A DNA stretch of 64,000 nt, taken from contig OZ020591.1 of NCBI GenBank assembly GCA_963971535.1, positions 17,036,823 to 17,100,822 on the forward strand, given 5' to 3'. The DNA is from Notolepis coatsorum. Its lineage: Eukaryota; Chordata; Actinopteri; Aulopiformes; Paralepididae. The notes under the pieces are model-generated. The model saw nothing but the letters and a program-made list of their open reading frames with translations, was not told the DNA's origin and did no database searches. Made by a program: the position numbers and the translations under genes. Positions 591-62,780 of this stretch are shown here, piece after piece (positions within the stretch are counted from its first letter, which is position 1; the number at the start of each line of letters is the position of its first letter).

Positions 591-1514
591 TTACCTTTCC
601 CATTTTCGCCATTCTGTGCAGTGCTGGTACATTTTACACAGATTGGTTGACAAAACTACCACATAAGCACAGTGGTTTTTTAATTCAATACCAAGCGTTC
701 GTGAGCAGAGCGTGATGACCTCATTCACGAAGTGCGTTCCGTTGTCGGATCTTATTATAGATGATATTCCGTGCGTTGAAAAGATGTCTTTACACAGTAT
801 GTTTGCTACTGTAAGTGCTGTTAAATCTTTTGTTGGAAATATTTCTACCCATTTAGAAAATGCATCAATGATTACCAAACAGTATCTTAGTTTACCGTTT
901 TGAGATAATTCTATGAAGTCCATGTGTATCACTTGAAATGGGTGTGTGGGTTTAGGGAAACTTCCTCTTTTTGGTCGGCAGCCACCCTGCGAGTTATTTT
1001 TACAACAGATCAAGCATGCTCTACAAAAATTTTTTGTATAGTTTTGGTAATTAGGAGCATAGAACACTTTCATCACCTGTGATATCATCCCACAGCTTGA
1101 GACATGGGTAACCCCATGACTCAATATAGCTGCCACCTTATACATAGCTTTAGGCAGAACCAGCTTGTCCTGTATAGTGAGAAGTCCCCTGGGGTTTCTC
1201 ACAGCGCCTGCGCGCGTCCATGCCTGTTGCTCCAGTATGGGTGCAGCGTTTTGCATGTCTAGTAGGATTTCACAATCGATGGGCGTGTTTACAGACGTGT
1301 CACTTACGAAAGTGTCATGTGTCTTTGGGTTTTTTCCCACAGCTGCTAATTTCGCCATCTTGTCTGCAAAGTTGTTTCCGGTGGTAACCAACGATGTGTC
1401 TGTCTTGTGTGCGGCACATTTGCACAATGCAAGCGAATTTGGTAATGAGACCACATCTAAAAGTTGTTTTAGTAGTTCCCCATGAGTCACAGCTTTTCCT
1501 GTTGAGGTAATCAT
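591..1514 (-). pseudogene. Retroviral integrase (fossil)
   Basis: Shows the HHCC zinc-binding region (HGVTH then CRACLIC), and the core start VIHMDFIEL, the FSKWVEIFP strand and the SDNGTHF box with the second catalytic Asp. Similarity fades towards the left. The first ~70 residues still belong to the end of RNase H. Part of the retroviral fossil. Confidence 0.8.
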
Positions 1515-3263
1515 TCATCTGCGTGCCCACAACTGTGCAAAGTGATGGACTGCAGAAAAAGCATACTGGCTGTCAGTATATAGGTTAATCTTTTTTCCCT
1601 CTGCCCATTTGCAGGCTGCAATTATGGCTGACAATTCAGCTGCTTGGGCAGATAGGTGTGATGATAATTCTTTTCCTATGAGCAGTGTATCTACGGTTGT
1701 TACTGCGAATCCTGTATGTGTTTTGCCATACTGATCTTTTGACGATGAGCCGTCAACAAAAATGTCTATGTAGCCTTGTTGAGGTGTGTCATGCATGTCT
1801 TGTCTCGGTTTGGTAGCTTGGTCTGTCTCATGAATGCAGCAGTGGGGTGTACCATTCTCTGCTGTTGGCAAAAGTGTTGCTGGATTCAACATGGTGCATC
1901 GTTTCAATGTTATGTGAGGTTGTGACAACAGCGTGGCTGTCAAGTATAAGTGTCTGGCTGCTGTGAGGAATGTTAATTTAGCTTGTAGTAGTAACGCATC
2001 CACAGCGTGTGGTACGAATACTGTCAATGGGCTATACAACACTAACTCAGCAGTTGTGGTGACAGCCATACTCGCCGCGACGGTGGCCTGTACACAGGGA
2101 GGTAACGCTCTAGCCACTGAATCTAGTCGGCTAGAATAATATCCTACTGGGCGTCTCTTGGACCCATGTGGCTGGGTGAGTACTGCGCACATGTGCCCAT
2201 CATTATTGTGTACAAACAGTTCAAACGGCAGACTGTAATCTGGAAATGCCAGAATAGCATTTGATTGTAACAACTTTTTCATTGTTATGAATGCTTCGTC
2301 AGCCTCAGGTGTCCATGTTAATTTATCTGTCAAAGCCATCTCTGTAGTGTAGATTAGCGCCTGTAGGGGTGCTGTTGTTCTAGAGTATTCTGGAATCCAA
2401 ATTCTACAATAATTACACATTCCCAAGAAACTCATTAGATGTCTTTTATTAAGGGGCTTGGGGGCCTCAGAGATTGCCAGCTTTCTGTTTTCGTGCAGCC
2501 GTTTACCTTGCTGTGAGATCTGGTGACCTAAGTACGTGACCTCTGGTTGCACAAATTGAAGTTTCGAAAGGGAAACTTTGTTTCCTGTTTTTGCTAAATG
2601 CTGTAGAACCTCTAGTGTTGTGTCTCTGCACTGGTCAGCTGTGTTTGATCCTATGAGGATATCTTCCACATAAATCAATATTTGACTATGCTCTTTAGGA
2701 ATGTACGTTGACATGCATTTCTGTATGTTTTCTGCAAATATTGAAGGGCTCTCACTGTACCCTTGTGGTAAGCGAGTGTAGGTGTATTTTACTCCTTCAA
2801 ACGTGAATCCAAACCAATGCTGAGCGTCTCGGTGTAGAGGAATTGAGGAAAATGCATTACTCAAATCTATGACTGAAAAGACTTTTTTCTCTGGTTCTAA
2901 ACTGTTCAGCAATGTGTGTGGGTTAGGTACGTTAGGTGCTCTTGGAATTACTGCGCTGTTGACTGTTCTCAAGTCTTGTATTAGCCTCCATTTGCCAGTG
3001 ATTGCTTTTTCCACAGGGACTATGGGTGTATTACACTGCGCTTTGGGTGAGCGAATTATAATACCTGCTTTTTCCATGTCTGCAATGACTGGTCTGATGC
3101 CATCCATTGCCTGTTTTTTCAATGGGTACTGGCGAGTCACAGGCCTGTAATCTGATCTGGGAGTAATAGTTACTGGCAACGCTGTGGTCATTAATCCCAC
3201 ATCAGAGGGCCCCTTTGACCATAAGGAGGGAGGAAGCGCTCTCAGTTCTGGGTGGTCCTCCAA
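1515..3263 (-). pseudogene. Retroviral reverse transcriptase and RNase H (fossil)
   Basis: 582 residues. Visible in order: the RT finger motif KWRLIQDLRTVN, palm motif A VIDLSNAFSSIPL, motif B LPQGYSESPSIF, motif C region around residue 200, the YLGHQIS thumb box, a connection domain, and RNase H with IFVDGSSS, AELSAIIAA and YTDSQYAF. The pattern is that of class I retroviral pol. It is part of the broken pro-pol of the fossil. Confidence 0.85.
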
Positions 3264-3272
3264 ACTTAATAA

Positions 3273-4142
3273 TCAAAAGGCTGGCTGTCCCGTCATGTGG
3301 ACGGTGGGAGTGGTCACTGTCGTCCAGCTTAGAGGTTTTCTCCTGAGGGTTTTATCACAGGAGGACTCCCACCCTCCTGTCTGTTCTGGATACCATTTCA
3401 CTTGATTTCTAGCCCTGGCCACAAAGTCTCCTAATTGGTACCATTTTGTACCGGGCTCTTTTGTGAGCGAGATGTGTGGAGGGTGTGTAGCCAGATCGTT
3501 GACCATTTTTGGCCATGAGACATCAGCAACACTACTCACTCCGTCAGAGTAGACATATGCGCACGTTATCTTTTGGGGTCCCAATTTATTAATCTTTTTA
3601 TCAAAATCTGGGTCAGGACCTGTTGTCCTTTTGAATCTGATTGTTGCGTGTAATTCCTCTGGCTTTTGAATATCGGCTGGGCCTTTAAGAGCCTCCTGTG
3701 CTACAGCTATTAGCTGTTTAGTGATAGACATAGGTTCTCTAGTGACTAGATCTAGTGACCACCAGTACCTGGGGTTCCCCCTTCCCTGTACGAGGAACAT
3801 TTCTGATCCCTCCTCGTGATCATCTCCTGTGTGATCCCATCTTACTACCGCTATACCCGTTTGGCCTGGTATAAGGGCTAGTCCGAGCAATGTCAGTGCG
3901 TCTCTCCCCAGGAGATTTACTGGACAGCACGGATCCACTATTAGTGGGATGGAAACTGATCGTTGAGAGATAGGGTCCAGTATGGTCACTGGTGCTGTGA
4001 GCTGCTGTGGAGTGACCAGGCCATTAGCCGACTTGACTAATATTCTTCTTCCTGTTTTTACTGCCTTTGGCGGGTTCTTCCTGACTAATGACGTGCAGGC
4101 TCCTGTGTCACACAGGAACTGTACTTTTTCTCCGTTTACCAA
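3273..4142 (-). pseudogene. Retroviral protease region (fossil)
   Basis: Contains the aspartic protease signature LCDTGAC near the start and the second conserved box LLGRDAL about 80 residues later, as in retropepsins. The remaining part is a spacer leading into RT. It lies between gag and the RT region of the same element and belongs to its broken pro-pol. Confidence 0.8.
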
Positions 4143-4325
4143 TAAATTAATATAGGGCTTGCAGTCTTTGCTTTTTAGGTCATATGACGCTAATATCAGG
4201 CCTACATCTATATAGTCAGTGTTCTGGTAAGGGTCATGATTAAGTAGGTCAGATTCCGAATCAGAGTCAGACTCAGAGTCTCTTCCTTGTTTAGGAGGGC
4301 AGTTTGGGTTGTGGTCTCGGCCTAG

Positions 4326-5864
4326 TCATTCTTTATTGTTCTCGTTATAGTCTCCATTTCCTTGGGTGGGGCAGTCTCGGGCGAAATGACCTTTGCCCCC
4401 ACACGTGAAACATTTGTCATTTTTAATGTCACGTCCTGGGTATTGGCCTCTGCCTCTACCCCTACCTTGACCCCTTCTATTCTGGCCTTGACCCCTTCCT
4501 CTCCCACCATAGTTACTAGGGCCCTGGTAGTAGATTCCCATACCTCCCTCATCGTCCTGGTAAAATACCTTGGCTATTTTTTGCTTTTTCTTTGCCTCTA
4601 CCTCGGTGGCATGTCGAGCATAATTTAGTGCTTCCATCAGTGTGCCAATTTTCCAATTTACCCAATTTTTCTTAAGCCACTCCCTAAGGTGGGCTAATAG
4701 ACCCTCAATGAAGGCCATTTTCAGCTGTTGTTGGTAAGTACCGTTGACATCATTCTCATATGGGATGCCACTATGTTGTCTGAACACAACTTGTATCCTG
4801 TCTAGGAAGTCACCTGCTAACTCGTCATGTTTCTGTTGTGTGCCATGAATTCTACCATAGTCTGCTCTCATTCTGTACTCGGTTCGTATACGCTCATACA
4901 ATGCGTTCAGTGCGGCTGTCAGTAGGTCGTCCCTTAATGCAACCCCATCCACTTCGCCTGTATAATCCTCTTGTATTTTGTACCATCTACTTCCGAACAC
5001 CGCCATCAAAACTCTGAGCATTTCTACACCATCCAGTCGGTAGGACATTCTCAGCCCCCCCAACTGGGTGATGAGTTCATCAGGTCCCGCTGCGGGCTTT
5101 GGTAACCCCTTGACATGCTCTAGAATGTCGGAGTGTCCCCAGGGCCGGTGCACCTCTGTGAGTCTTGCAGTATCGCCCTCGATTCCAAAATGGGGATTTG
5201 GAACTTGGAGCATTGGCAAATTATTTATCACCTCAGTGTTGTACGGGGGAGGGCGTGCACTAGTTGTATGTTCTATCGGCAGTGTGGGGTACAAGCTATC
5301 TTTTGTTGAGTGTAGGTTCAGTCCTGTCATCTGTCTGGTAACAGGTCTGTTTTTGTTTATTTTAGCTGCCGCCTCTTGTTTTTTATTCTCCTTTTCTACT
5401 CTCTTAGTCTCAACTGTCTTGGCTATTCTGGCCTCTTCTACTGCTGCTACTGCTGCTACTATTTCTGCCCGTCTGTGCATTTCAGCTGTTACCAGTCTGT
5501 GCACTTCGCCTGTCAACAAGGATGTGTGGACGGTCACCTCCTCCTCCTCCGCTTTTTGTGCCAGGCCGAGCAGCGCTGCACTTGGCTTTCTTATCTTCTC
5601 TGTGTCTGTTTTTTTCTTTGCCTCGTCTAACCACCTCTGTGCAATAATCTTTTGCTCTGTAAACTTGATCTGTCCTTTTGTAGAGGTGGTGGTTATGATT
5701 TTCATATTCAGCTCATCCAATACTTTCTTGCAACTGTCTGTAGTACAGTAGCCTGTAAACCCATGTTTTTTCTTCCATTCAGCTACGTGACGCATGTTTT
5801 CCGGATCCTTTTCAAACATGCATTTCTCATCTTCCGTGAGGGCTTTACTTTGTGATTTCCCCAT
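4326..5864 (-). CDS. Retroviral gag (fossil)
   Basis: A 512-residue open frame. It begins MGKSQSKA, a typical N-myristoylation start of retroviral matrix, has a charged Glu/Lys/Ala-rich region at about residues 120-170, a capsid-like central part and near the C-terminus a Gly/Arg-rich stretch followed by one CCHC zinc knuckle (CFTCGGKGHFARDC). The frame looks whole as it stands. It lies between a leader of about 720 bp and the protease region. Confidence 0.85.
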   Translation of the reverse strand: MGKSQSKALTEDEKCMFEKDPENMRHVAEWKKKHGFTGYCTTDSCKKVLDELNMKIITTTSTKGQIKFTEQKIIAQRWLDEAKKKTDTEKIRKPSAALLGLAQKAEEEEVTVHTSLLTGEVHRLVTAEMHRRAEIVAAVAAVEEARIAKTVETKRVEKENKKQEAAAKINKNRPVTRQMTGLNLHSTKDSLYPTLPIEHTTSARPPPYNTEVINNLPMLQVPNPHFGIEGDTARLTEVHRPWGHSDILEHVKGLPKPAAGPDELITQLGGLRMSYRLDGVEMLRVLMAVFGSRWYKIQEDYTGEVDGVALRDDLLTAALNALYERIRTEYRMRADYGRIHGTQQKHDELAGDFLDRIQVVFRQHSGIPYENDVNGTYQQQLKMAFIEGLLAHLREWLKKNWVNWKIGTLMEALNYARHATEVEAKKKQKIAKVFYQDDEGGMGIYYQGPSNYGGRGRGQGQNRRGQGRGRGRGQYPGRDIKNDKCFTCGGKGHFARDCPTQGNGDYNENNKE

Positions 5865-49225: not shown

Positions 49226-49344
49226 GCTTACGGTCATGCCAACCTGTACACGCCCGATCTCGTTCGATCTCGGCCGCTACGCTGGTTTGGTCCTGGTTAG
49301 TACTTGGTTGGGAGACCGCCTGGGAATAACAAGGGCGGTGTGCT
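49226..49344 (+). rRNA. 5S rRNA-like sequence, degenerate
   Basis: Reads along the whole 5S: GCTTACGGTCATGCCAACCT, CGCCCGATCTCGTTCGATCT, then GTTAGTACTTGGTTGGGAGA and CCGCCTGGGAATA, matching vertebrate 5S rRNA at most positions over ~119 nt. The internal promoter is altered: box A reads GCTACGCTGGT where 5S has GCTAAGCAGGG, while box C keeps one mismatch. It lies on the plus strand inside the DIRS-like element. Likely a 5S pseudogene or the head of a 5S-derived SINE rather than a functional gene. Confidence 0.8.
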
Positions 49345-56407: not shown

Positions 56408-57499
56408 TACTGAGACAATATGCAAATAAGATAATACTAATAATTGTCACCGTTCCCCGTATGAAAGTGGCTTGCAACTTACTGCTGGTAAAATCACTGT
56501 TTATTTATTTTGCATAGTATTACATTCATCTTCTATAAACAATCAAAGTCTCACCATAAGAGCGTCATACGGGTCAAATAAACCTTTTTGATTAGAGTCT
56601 TTCCTTCGAGCTAAGTTGAACTGAACATTTCATTGTCAAAAGCGCAAATTTAAACAAGGTTGCGTCGCAACACTGTTTTCTAAATAAAGGTAACATAACA
56701 AATACCGTAGTAGGCCTCTCAATTCTTATAAAAAAAAGTCCTGGATATACATAAAACATTAATTGGCATAGATCTCTATAAACGGCCCAACCCATTGATC
56801 ACTTTAGGCACACCCTGAAACCAGTAACATCACAAATATGAAGCAGGTAATTACCCATAAAAATAATAAACCTTTCATGGGGTTATTTATAGGGCTGACA
56901 AATTTACTTATAATAATTTCTTTTTCTTTTTTTATCTTATGTTGTGGGACTTGTACAGCACTTTGGTAAACTTTGTTGTTTTTAAATGTGCTCTATAAAT
57001 AAAGTGGATTTAATTAATTAAGTAGCCCCTTTTCGTGACTGACGCAGCCAACAAGGTTTCACTCGGCTGCTCTGCCTGGGTGCAGTGGGGCTGCTCTCAC
57101 AGCCAACGACATGACATTACATAATTATGTTGCAACCTTCGTCTATCAAGGAAACAATTATATTATATTTAATTTATCATTTATAATTTATAATTATATC
57201 AGACAATGCACCTACAAAAGCAGATGATTACAATTAAATTAGCCAACTTGGTAACACATTAGTCATAGCAGCATAGGCATTAGTGTTGTCAAAAATATCG
57301 AAGTATCGATACATATCGATACTGAATATTTAAAATGGTTTCGATACTCATTTCCCGAAATACCGATACTTTCTGCAGTATCGGTACCAGCTGGCGAGTG
57401 TTCTACCGCAAGTTGTTGACACGCTGTTCAGAGCACGCTTGCCCCCTCCGGCTCCTCCAGCCCTCCCCCTCACAGAGCCGACAAACATTTTAGCTGAAG

Positions 57500-57670
57500 A
57501 TGGCAAATGCAGAGCATCCGCAACTTGTGCTTGTGGATAAAGAAAACAGCAGAAGTGCTGTTTGGAGGTACTTCGGGTTTAAAGTAAACAACGAAGGACA
57601 AGCTAAAGAAGATGCCCCAATGCTATTTGCAAGCGGTGTTACAGATCAGTGCCAACGCGGATCTCCATAA
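57500..57670 (+). pseudogene. ZBED-like hAT transposase N-terminal fragment
   Basis: MANAEHPQLVLVDKENSRSA then VWRYFGFKVNNEGQAKEDAP, the start of a BED zinc finger (VWxxFGF). It stops after 56 codons before the zinc ligands of the second half, as an internal deletion derivative would. Confidence 0.6.
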
Positions 57671-58043
57671 AGAAATGAGAGGTTCGTGACAGCTGCTCTT
57701 TCAATGTCACTGTGACTGAAGCATTAAACCATTAACTCTAGTTTAATACATGATATGTTGTCTACTGATGGTGCATAATATCAACAGCTGATAAGTTGTT
57801 AGTAACGTTACAGGCAGCTATCAGCTAACGTTAGCCTACTGCTAGCCATTAGCTCCGTTAGCTTAGCTGGCCACTTTTATAATTACCTGTATGGAAACGG
57901 AGTAACGTTAACGTTTAAACGTTATGTCGAGGTCATACAATACTACAGTCGACATAAGGTTAACGTTACCCCATTTCCATGAAGTGTTTAAATAGCAGCA
58001 ATCTTGTTGAAAATGTAACGTTACTAAAATGCTCCGAGCATAG

Positions 58044-58044
<1 letters not shown>

Positions 58045-58107
<63 letters not shown>
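58045..58107. repeat. CT microsatellite
   Basis: About 31 uninterrupted CT units inside the hAT. Confidence 0.95.
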
Positions 58108-58112
<5 letters not shown>

Positions 58113-58353
58113 CTTTAAATAAAAATCGAAACTGTTACTAACTGTAATACAAACAGTGTTTACATCTGTCTGCTTGAGAAAATACCATGTTCTGCATCTG
58201 CAATAAAAATGATTGAAGTGAGATGAACAGTTATTTTTAAATGTGTGATCTAAAGATAAACAAAGGGTTTTAAAAGTGTTATATTTATCTTCTCTTATAG
58301 TACCAGAGAGAAGCTGAGGAAAATCAACCAGCAACAAAAGCTAAATTTGTTTA

Positions 58354-58386
<33 letters not shown>

Positions 58387-58484
58387 TTTATTTTTTGGTC
58401 TCGAAATGGTATCGAAGTATCGATACTTTTCAAGGTATCGTATCGAAGTCGAAATTCCAGTATCGTGACAACACTAATAGGCAT

Positions 58485-58700
58485 AGCCTTATTAATGTTT
58501 TGTGTGGCGTCGCCGTCGTGTACAACGATACTTACGTTTTTTAGGTGATTTGACAAAGTTCTTGTAGAGTTGTGATATGCCATTTTCTTCTGGCACTCGG
58601 CTTTTTGGGCATTGTCTTTGCATATTTTAAAGTGTAACCACACGTCTGATGACTTCTTCGTCGACATGTCTGCTGCACATGTCCTTGTTGTTTTCAACAC
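58485..58700 (-). pseudogene. BED zinc-finger transposase N-terminus
   Basis: Minus strand from 58700: MLKTTRTCAADMSTKKSSDV WLHFKICKDNAQKAECQKKM then AYHNSTRTLSNHLKNVS. VWxHF, the C and the TxxLxxHLK pattern fit a BED finger, with some zinc ligands altered. It is cut by the hAT at 58476. Probably the transposase relict of the element 55725-59277. Confidence 0.6.
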
Positions 58701-60207
58701 AGATCATCTCCACGTGCTTGTTGTAGAGAGGTGGAGTCGAGGTACCGCTTACTTTCGTTTCATTGGAATGGAGGCGCAAGATTTTGGAGGAGAATTATTA
58801 CTATTTTTTTTTTTATGTTCGAAGCTTGTGCCATCGAACGAAGCTTTGAAGTATTTAAGACAGCCCTAGTTATTTACAATAATAATAATTCATTTTATTT
58901 ATAAAGCACTTTTCATTGTGAAACAAATGTATGCAGAGTTTCTTGTCCTCCTGATTAATGCAATGGTGTGTGTGTGTTGTGGTGATCTCATTCAAGGAGC
59001 ACTACACAAGCGCGCGCACACACACACACAGTTTGTTGTTTTTGTTCTATTAGTGATTTACACACTTTCTCAGTTGGTTCATTCTTCAAACCTGAAAACA
59101 AACGCACTTAAATGTTAAATAAAAGGACCACAGTAATGAGGCAGGAGGAAAAAAAATTTGCACTATAATGGTAAAATTGTTATTTAAAAATGTGCCCCTA
59201 AAAAATATTCTGTGCCCCTAAATTTCTCATTTAGGGGCAAGTGTGCCCCTAGTGAAAAAGCTTAGCGTACAGCCCTGCTAAGCCATTGTAAGACCTTACC
59301 TGTGTCCCTGTATCACTCGTCTCTGCTGCCCTTTGACTAAAAAACGTCCCTATGTCTATTTTCTTTTTTCTTTCTGGTCGCATATTTGAGTTAGTCACCT
59401 AGTAAAAGTGAGATAATTGACAATATCAAAACATGCTATGGCTGTACCTAGGGGTGCACCGATATATCGGTCGGGTATCGGTATCGGCCGATAAGTGCCT
59501 TGTTGACTGCTATCGGCCTATCGGCCGATAAGCTCAAATGTGCCGATAGCAGTCGCCGATAAATACCCATCAATTTGTGTAGCGTAAAAGGCAAAAAAAA
59601 AAAAGTTCACTCGCGACCTACCTGCAGTGCACAACGCCCGCCGTCCCCCACACACACACACAAGCTACTGCATCAAAGTAACTAGTACTTATGATTAACA
59701 AGGCATTCGTTTTGTGGCATTAGCGTTATATAGTTAGTGTTACATGGACAATAACATCAGCATATTATTATTACCCATAGCAGCAAGGCATTACTCCGAG
59801 TCCGTTCATTAGCTACCGGGAGATGCAAGACCAACGTTACTGGTGAAAATGTGATTTGCGTTGGAATACTCCTTTGTCAACTTGCTGTACTTTGCTTGCA
59901 GGTCTGCAGCCATTATTGCTGCATTATGAATAGCCCCAACTTTAGCCAAGGCAACGTTATGGCTAAACCTTTAACAATAGTTAACGCTAGCTTTCGGTTA
60001 GCTGTTCAATGCTATTAATAACACAACTCCCCGTCAACACCCTCTCTTGGGAAGATGGCATTTAAGAAAGTATCTGCTGTTAAAATAAAGTGTTACACGT
60101 TCAATAACAAGCATATTATTTACCCGAAGATAGCTGTAAACAAGGCATTACTCAGTTAGTCCGTTCATAGCTCGGTTCCATTCCGTTGCTCATTCCGTAC
60201 CCAACTA

Positions 60208-61722: not shown

Positions 61723-61946
61723 CTAGGGGTGTAACGGTACGCGAATACGTACTGTACCGCCTCAATGTGGTCCTCCGGTACAGTACGAGCTGTGCACCGA
61801 ACGATTGCAACGGTACGGAACCTTTTTTTGCGGAACTTAAATCCCCCCGGCCCTAAAATAACGTGCACAACTAACCGGATGTTTCTTCATCCCACGCAGC
61901 CACGCTGAACGAGAGCTGTAATTCAGCATAGCATATTAGCCTTAGA

Positions 61947-62421
61947 GTGGCGAGTGCAATACTAACTGACAAGCCAGAGCTAGAACATGCTCCCACAACA
62001 TTCAAGTCTCCCGTTTGGGATCATTTCGGATTCCCAGTTAACCACAGTAATGGACAAAGACAGGTGGATCACACTAAAGCTACGTGCCGGCTAGCCCCTT
62101 TCGTGACTGTGATGCACACTTGTGATGCAAGCCTTGCATCACAGTCACGAAAGGGGCTACGTGCCAGCATTGTTCAACTTTATTGCAAACTTTATCACGC
62201 ATTTGAAACGGCATCACCCGAATGTGAATATCACTGGAACAAGGAAGAAACAGACCCTAGTGCAAACCCAGCTCCCCGTGGCATTCAAGCAGCATCTCGC
62301 TATTAATTCAGACCGGGCCAAAGCGATAACAAACGCCATAGGTGTTTTTATAGCAGCAGATCTGCAACCATACTCCGTTGTCGAGAACACTGGGTTTAAG
62401 CACATAGAGCATAGAGAGTAA
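61947..62421 (+). pseudogene. ZBED-like hAT transposase N-terminal relict
   Basis: First part PTTFKSPVWDHFGFPVNHSN then GQRQVDHTKATCRLA (first half of a BED finger); after a 67-bp foldback insertion and a frame change, FIANFITHLKRHHPNVNITG (second half with HxxxxH) and further RAKAITNAIGVFIAADLQPY SVVENTGFKHIEHRE. The part after the finger is the dimer/linker region of ZBED-type hAT transposases. The catalytic core is absent. Confidence 0.75.
62092..62158. mobile_element. Tiny foldback element, copy 1
   Basis: 67 bp: AGCCCCTTTCGTGACTG… and its inverted end CAGTCACGAAAGGGGCT, nearly all stem. Flanked by ACGTGCCGGC (62082-62091) and ACGTGCCAGC (62159-62168), a 10-bp duplication with one mismatch. 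It splits the BED finger of the hAT relict. Confidence 0.75.
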
Positions 62422-62491
62422 TAGCCCCGCTACCTAGTTCCCTCTTGTCCGTATTTCAGCCAGCAAGTCATACCACCAGCTCTGTATAAAC

Positions 62492-62568
62492 GAGCCCCTT
62501 TCGTGACTGTGATGCAAGCCCTGCCCCTGTATTCAAGCAGGGCTTGCATCACAGTCATGAAAGGGGCT
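62492..62568. mobile_element. Tiny foldback element, copy 2
   Basis: 77 bp: AGCCCCTTTCGTGACTG… and inverted CAGTCATGAAAGGGGCT with a loop around CTGTATTCAAG. Flanked by the exact 10-bp duplication CTGTATAAAC (62482-62491, 62569-62578). Same family as copy 1, in the 3' part of the same hAT. Confidence 0.8.
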
Positions 62569-62780
62569 CTGTATAAACAAGCACACGCTACAGTTGTCCA
62601 AGGCATGTGCTATATAATAATCTTCAGATGTACTTTTAAGTGTTATTAGTAGGTTACAGCAGTAAGCATTAGTTTGCTCAGTAAATTATGGCCAATTCGT
62701 TTTATATTGTTACGTGACTTCAAAACCGAGGTACGTACCGAACCGTGGATTTTGTGTACCGTTACACCCCTAATCCCTAC

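Follow-up and report, generated by a model that had tools for sequence, protein, structure and literature searches.

The window analysed here is a 64,000-nucleotide stretch of Notolepis coatsorum DNA that contains a hAT relict struck by two short hairpin insertions, together with a related one-sided end elsewhere. Its relevant features are as follows.

57023-57041, plus strand: one-sided end TAGCCCCTTTTCGTGACTG, a half-element.
61724-62772, plus strand: hAT relict struck by both insertions; terminal inverted repeats of 22 nt (91% complementary) and BED-finger transposase fragments.
62083-62091, no strand: left target duplication of foldback 1, CGTGCCGGC, 9 bp.
62092-62159, no strand: foldback 1, 68 bp; arms of 25 nt, fully complementary; ends T...A.
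62160-62168, no strand: right target duplication of foldback 1, CGTGCCAGC, 9 bp.
62483-62491, no strand: left target duplication of foldback 2, TGTATAAAC, 9 bp.
62492-62569, no strand: foldback 2, 78 bp; arms of 33 nt, 97% complementary; outermost pair G...C.
62570-62578, no strand: right target duplication of foldback 2, TGTATAAAC, 9 bp.

Both stem-loops described in the initial annotation are present where it had placed them. Folding as single-stranded DNA gave -36.5 kcal/mol for 62082-62168 (z -9.9 versus shuffles) and -43.1 kcal/mol for 62482-62578 (z -16.4 versus shuffles). Comparison with copies elsewhere in the genome reset the element boundaries to TAGCCCCTTTCGTGACTG...CAGTCACGAAAGGGGCTA with a target duplication of 9 bp. 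The hairpins, first given as 67 and 77 bp long, become 68 bp (62092-62159) and 78 bp (62492-62569). Likewise, the 10-bp direct repeats first read as target duplications are literally there, but the true duplication is 9 bp; the tenth base, on the left side, is a host base that precedes each 9-bp target and matches the last base of the element by chance, A at insertion 1 and C at insertion 2. The outermost pair of foldback 2 is not constant among hAT copies: the window has G...C, L026 T...A and L023 A...C. At up to three mismatches the 17-bp end matched the window five times, against 0.06 expected. A structural scan for exact direct repeats of at least 8 bp flanking arms with at least 9 paired bases recovered insertion 2 only and found zero matches in 10 simulated sequences; insertion 1 was overlooked because its duplication contains one mismatch.

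The location of both hairpins in a single hAT relict, as originally proposed, was borne out. When the two sides of insertion 1 were brought together, keeping a single copy of the duplication, a BED zinc finger reappeared (zf-BED in Pfam, E 7e-5), and the left piece of the hAT alone gave no BED finger in Pfam. Relatives of the hAT protein yielded 21 matches, one named from Polypterus and one from Metynnis, and eight of the 21 were aligned, with Polypterus included and Metynnis left out. Insertion point 1 is spanned without an insert in all eight aligned relatives and point 2 in seven of eight; the Polypterus protein departs from the family before insertion point 2. Thus, the restored BED finger and the insert-free relatives identify both hairpins as true insertions into an older element. 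As to the host, among the best 120 of 5015 reverse transcriptase relatives, those with a named source come mostly from ray-finned fishes and two from Xenopus, with a top identity under 80%, which makes a ray-finned fish the most likely host.

The hairpin ends belong to a very abundant family. Across the genome searched (3,421,551,600 bases or 3.42 Gb, in 4787 contigs), the exact 17-bp end has 12,134 copies, split 6087 to 6047 between the two strands, against a chance expectation of about 0.4 by hand estimate; the reversed 17-bp sequence, used as a whole-genome control, has zero matches. A search for two perfect ends within a span of 49-79 bp gave 292 places genome-wide; as the pattern is self-complementary, every place registers on both strands. 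No viral contig matched, and the 17-bp end occurred in eight bacterial contigs with one match each, below the ~30 expected from equal base frequencies by hand estimate, and a literature search found no mention of it.

Target duplications were examined in a foldback sample formed by the first places listed on contigs C1 and C4, which is non-random and draws many rows from one amplified hAT. The tiny copies in it make up 58 rows, four places appearing twice, and group into 23 flank clusters. One representative was taken per flank cluster, long copies included (n = 32). A 9-bp duplication with at most two mismatches flanks 25 of these 32 (17 exact); an exact 10-bp duplication flanks two and an 8-bp duplication one (L011), and the other four (L010, L034, L036 and L127, all at least 191 bp long) have none. 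As controls, setting the left flank of one copy against the right flank of another gave an equally good match in 6 of 992 pairs, and displacing the right flank by 1, 2 or 3 bases gave 2, 0 and 1 of 32. The outer pair is T...A in 31 representatives and G...C in insertion 2 of the window only. These results agree with the earlier expectation of many copies with differing 9-10-bp duplications; the 292 paired places and 32 represented flank clusters likewise take the family beyond the two copies, or the one shared flank, that had been named as grounds for rejecting it.

The same data bear on a non-transposon origin, in which template switching or break repair within the hAT produced the hairpins. 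In both window copies the extra left base pairs with the base that opens the 10-bp repeat on the right, and AGCT precedes both 10-bp repeats, as points in favour of such an event. That pairing is, however, just the outermost pair of the element, and more than 12,000 exact ends and 9-bp duplications at unrelated targets make this origin hardly credible; genome copies with T...A ends and 9-bp duplications refute it family-wide.

The same ends also bound much longer elements. Largely foldback copies of 191, 465, 553, 584, 594, 600 and 929 bp were found, together with two further foldbacks of 551 and 562 bp. Arm identity in these nine elements (191-929 bp) ranges from 75 to 99.5%, taken across as much as 203 bp past the 17-bp end; a tenth, only 85 bp long, falls below the length measurable for arm identity. 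The long copies are essentially two inverted arms and are in this sense foldbacks, and the 18-bp ends form terminal inverted repeats whose arms run on for as much as several hundred bp. Pfam gave no match for a short reading frame in a long arm. By-eye counting in L009 (590-1517) gave a ~35-bp repeat lying six times head-to-tail in each arm, in mirror symmetry. L032, considered as a 2653-bp element, was discarded as a chance pairing, as its ends are of different arm types and share no duplication by eye; its longest listed reading frame is 118 aa.

One pair of loci connects the long and the tiny forms directly. L035 (465 bp) and L057 (56 bp) sit in copies of one host repeat that are separated by ~178 Mb of the same contig. 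Of 286 flanking bases 284 are identical; the exceptions are a mismatch and a gap, the gap stemming from how the stretches were cut. Both loci carry the target duplication ATGACAATG. Removing 409 bp from L035 yields L057 without a single mismatch, and since the junction falls within a 9-bp repeat, ten adjacent positions fit it equally well. This exact difference shows that in-place collapse can give rise to a tiny form. A second site, CTATCGTGG, recognised by eye from its flanks in eight fetched places, occurs by eye as two intact forms of 55 bp, four in which the right end is largely gone, and two single forms of 39 and 37 bp. In 22 hAT copies insertion 1 measures 53 (three copies), 55 (two), 66 (five), 68 (eleven) or 70 bp (one). 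The length variants at insertion 1 and CTATCGTGG thus point to small in-place changes as common in this sample; a large collapse was seen once, as one exact pair, alongside one erosion series. With the same ends bounding elements of up to 929 bp and the L035/L057 pair at hand, the original description of the hairpins as extremely short elements in their own right was not supported.

A related proposal is that the tiny hairpins are true mini-MITEs of 50-80 bp, moved as such by a Mutator-like transposase that would need little beyond the 18-bp ends. The 23 flank clusters of the fetched tiny copies, mostly with clean 9-bp duplications, argue for self-moving tiny copies and count against a collapse origin, and a long form at the window sites was found in none of the 22 (insertion 1) and three (insertion 2) fetched copies, window included. 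On the other hand, the tiny form L057 was produced by deletion at an already occupied site, and tiny copies vary in their inner arms, which by eye track several long-arm types, as repeated collapse rather than one tiny master would predict. We therefore consider mini-MITEs unlikely. The tiny copies do share with ordinary MITEs their shortness, non-coding nature, inverted ends, target duplications and high copy number; they differ in that their lengths and arms vary and that one of them is a collapsed long copy.

Arm comparisons were made within and between copies. Among the 23 tiny representatives the inner arm scored 0.54 against its own partner and 0.22 against others (as high in 0 of 20,000 permutations), and the own arm was the best or tied-best match in nine. 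For the longer copies the own arm outscored every other copy in 5 of 10, one being unmeasurable, and the top between-copy value was 0.951. The pattern reveals subfamilies whose arms are paired, and not necessarily copying between arms.

The two window insertions are themselves shared with other hAT copies. The flanks of insertion 1 are common to 22 fetched loci, window included, most of these stretches being too short to reach site 2; the flanks of insertion 2 are common to three fetched loci, and a fourth, L073, ends inside insertion 2. Each insertion therefore resembles a single event amplified with the hAT, and the idea that the window copies are separate fresh hits did not hold; some of the loci may also be segmental duplicates. 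The hAT copy L022 has insertion 1 and an unoccupied site 2 with a small local duplication adjoining it. Insertion 2 is thus probably the younger, or site 2 in L022 may instead have been vacated by excision. The empty site and small duplication, at ~1870-1920 of L022, could be an excision footprint.

Isolated ends are also frequent. The related one-sided sequence noted earlier near 57024 is present at 57023-57041, and this half-element recurs at 14 other fetched loci with an identical or nearly identical flank, which marks it as an old half-element carried by another repeat. Window 56890-58868 is another hAT-like element, with the 8-bp duplication GTTATTTA read by eye, and contains the 57023 end and a nested repeat. 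Among 100 exact ends listed, 16 lie in convergent pairs less than 600 bp apart (by-eye count). A follow-up sample of 20 exact ends lacking a convergent partner within 600 bp gave a credible altered second end for four (85, 551, 39 and 562 bp, three with a 9-bp duplication) and a weak, probably false one for two; for the other 14, two of which represent the eroded site CTATCGTGG, a stretch of about 1 kb held no second end. Many exact ends are therefore remnants, at least in the sampled part of the genome.

To which superfamily the mobilising enzyme would belong was approached through the duplications and through MULE-domain sequences. The hAT and P superfamilies usually make target duplications of 8 bp, from which the 9 bp seen here differs; 8 bp occurs in 1 of the 32 representatives. 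MULE target duplications span 8-11 bp as given in the cited part of one survey (PMC6446971), and the 9-bp (25), 10-bp (two) and 8-bp (one) duplications among the 32 representatives fall in this range. Matches to the MULE domain (PF10551) were obtained at no fewer than 14 places in the genome, with 150 of 253 candidates scored. They form one group of L092-L095 and another of L096-L098 and L100-L104, with L099 and L105 as weak strays. The best match among L092-L095 and L096-L104, in this fish genome, has an E of 5.3e-11. The 17-bp ends do not occur within about 1.5 kb of the 14 places at up to four mismatches, and larger stretches of four of the loci (two per group) contained no convincing end. 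A weak end-like match recurring in L106 and L107 at up to five edits was judged unrelated, and one found three times in L109 at up to four edits belongs to another repeat. The initial annotation had favoured a Mutator-like element and anticipated a longer one with the same ends coding for a MULE transposase. The 9-10-bp duplications, the many different flanks and the long foldbacks uphold that reading in part, but the stretches searched contained no MULE transposase with these ends.

Somewhat unlikely, in our judgement, is mobilisation of the foldback family by a non-Mutator transposase, comparable to Galileo with its P-type transposase. The foldback form is not confined to a single superfamily, according to the relevant sections of two reports (PMC4079207, PMC3573991), which favours such an enzyme, as does the separation of the MULE-domain places from these ends. 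The survey cited above, in the part concerned, also judges the Repbase vertebrate MuDR entries misidentified, the zebrafish ones because no MULE transposase could be matched (PMC6446971); these zebrafish elements, compared by description only, resemble the present family as fish elements filed as Mutator. Against a non-Mutator enzyme, 9 bp lies within the MULE range (PMC6446971), unlike the 7 bp of Galileo (PMC3573991), MULE-domain sequences exist in this genome, and MULEs are mentioned for animals from insects through fish in a passage of another report (PMC5225508).

Known foldbacks provide closer parallels, as far as the cited descriptions go. Tm1, a root-knot nematode foldback of the Mutator superfamily, has mostly 9-bp duplications (PMC3169594), and Tetris of Drosophila virilis has 8-10-bp duplications and was assigned to Mutator solely from its duplications and form (PMC4079207). 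The likeness to both consists of long inverted repeats with internal repeats, 8-10-bp duplications and short MITE-like relatives. The differences are the fish host, the >12,000 exact ends, the TAGCCCC ends and the copies collapsed to 40-85 bp; Tm1 in addition has a coding member, of which none was found here. Galileo, a foldback of the Drosophila P superfamily, is similar in that two-inverted-repeat copies outnumber coding ones and the arms of one copy are very alike, and it differs in duplication length and in the average size of its two-arm copies, 1.7-2.2 kb, by the same partial account (PMC3573991). Together with the nematode and Drosophila foldbacks, the 9-bp duplications suggest that the family works like a Mutator foldback; the assignment fits the duplication length and the foldback form and stays unproven.

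We thus think it probable that the hairpins belong, as greatly shortened copies with no coding capacity, to an abundant foldback family that behaves like a cut-and-paste element of Mutator type. We infer that a transposase supplied in trans, putatively of Mutator type, recognises the TAGCCCCTTTCGTGACTG ends; insertion at a staggered break and its repair would give the 9-bp duplication, rarely one of 8 or 10 bp. The mobile form would probably be a foldback of ~0.5-0.9 kb with little beyond two inverted arms. Being unstable palindromes, such copies would undergo deletion between short arm repeats and leave in-place hairpins of about 40-85 bp, and the two window copies may be collapse products of this kind. 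Both entered one hAT, insertion 1 probably first, and would then have spread with it. A broader picture, quite possible and offered tentatively, is that of a fish foldback family with thousands of copies and 9-bp duplications whose transposase would lie outside the well-described vertebrate elements, with palindromes collapsing repeatedly by microhomology deletion and amplified host repeats keeping alleles of one and the same insertion in long, tiny and eroded form. If true, the instability of palindromes in a vertebrate would here have left a natural record. With a long and a collapsed palindrome paired at one site, the rate and mechanism of vertebrate palindrome deletion could be measured, and such pairs reveal a route to tiny MITE-like hairpins without movement. 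Foldbacks with 9-bp duplications have been described from insects and nematodes, and vertebrate Mutator elements were judged misidentified in the cited part of one survey (PMC6446971); a fish family with this many exact ends makes the search for its enzyme worthwhile.

Two other features of the window were observed. An Rfam search gave nothing beyond a 5S rRNA-like match at 49226-49344 (76.2 bits), which is diverged by eye, and retrovirus-like reading frames were seen by eye on the minus strand at 591-5864.
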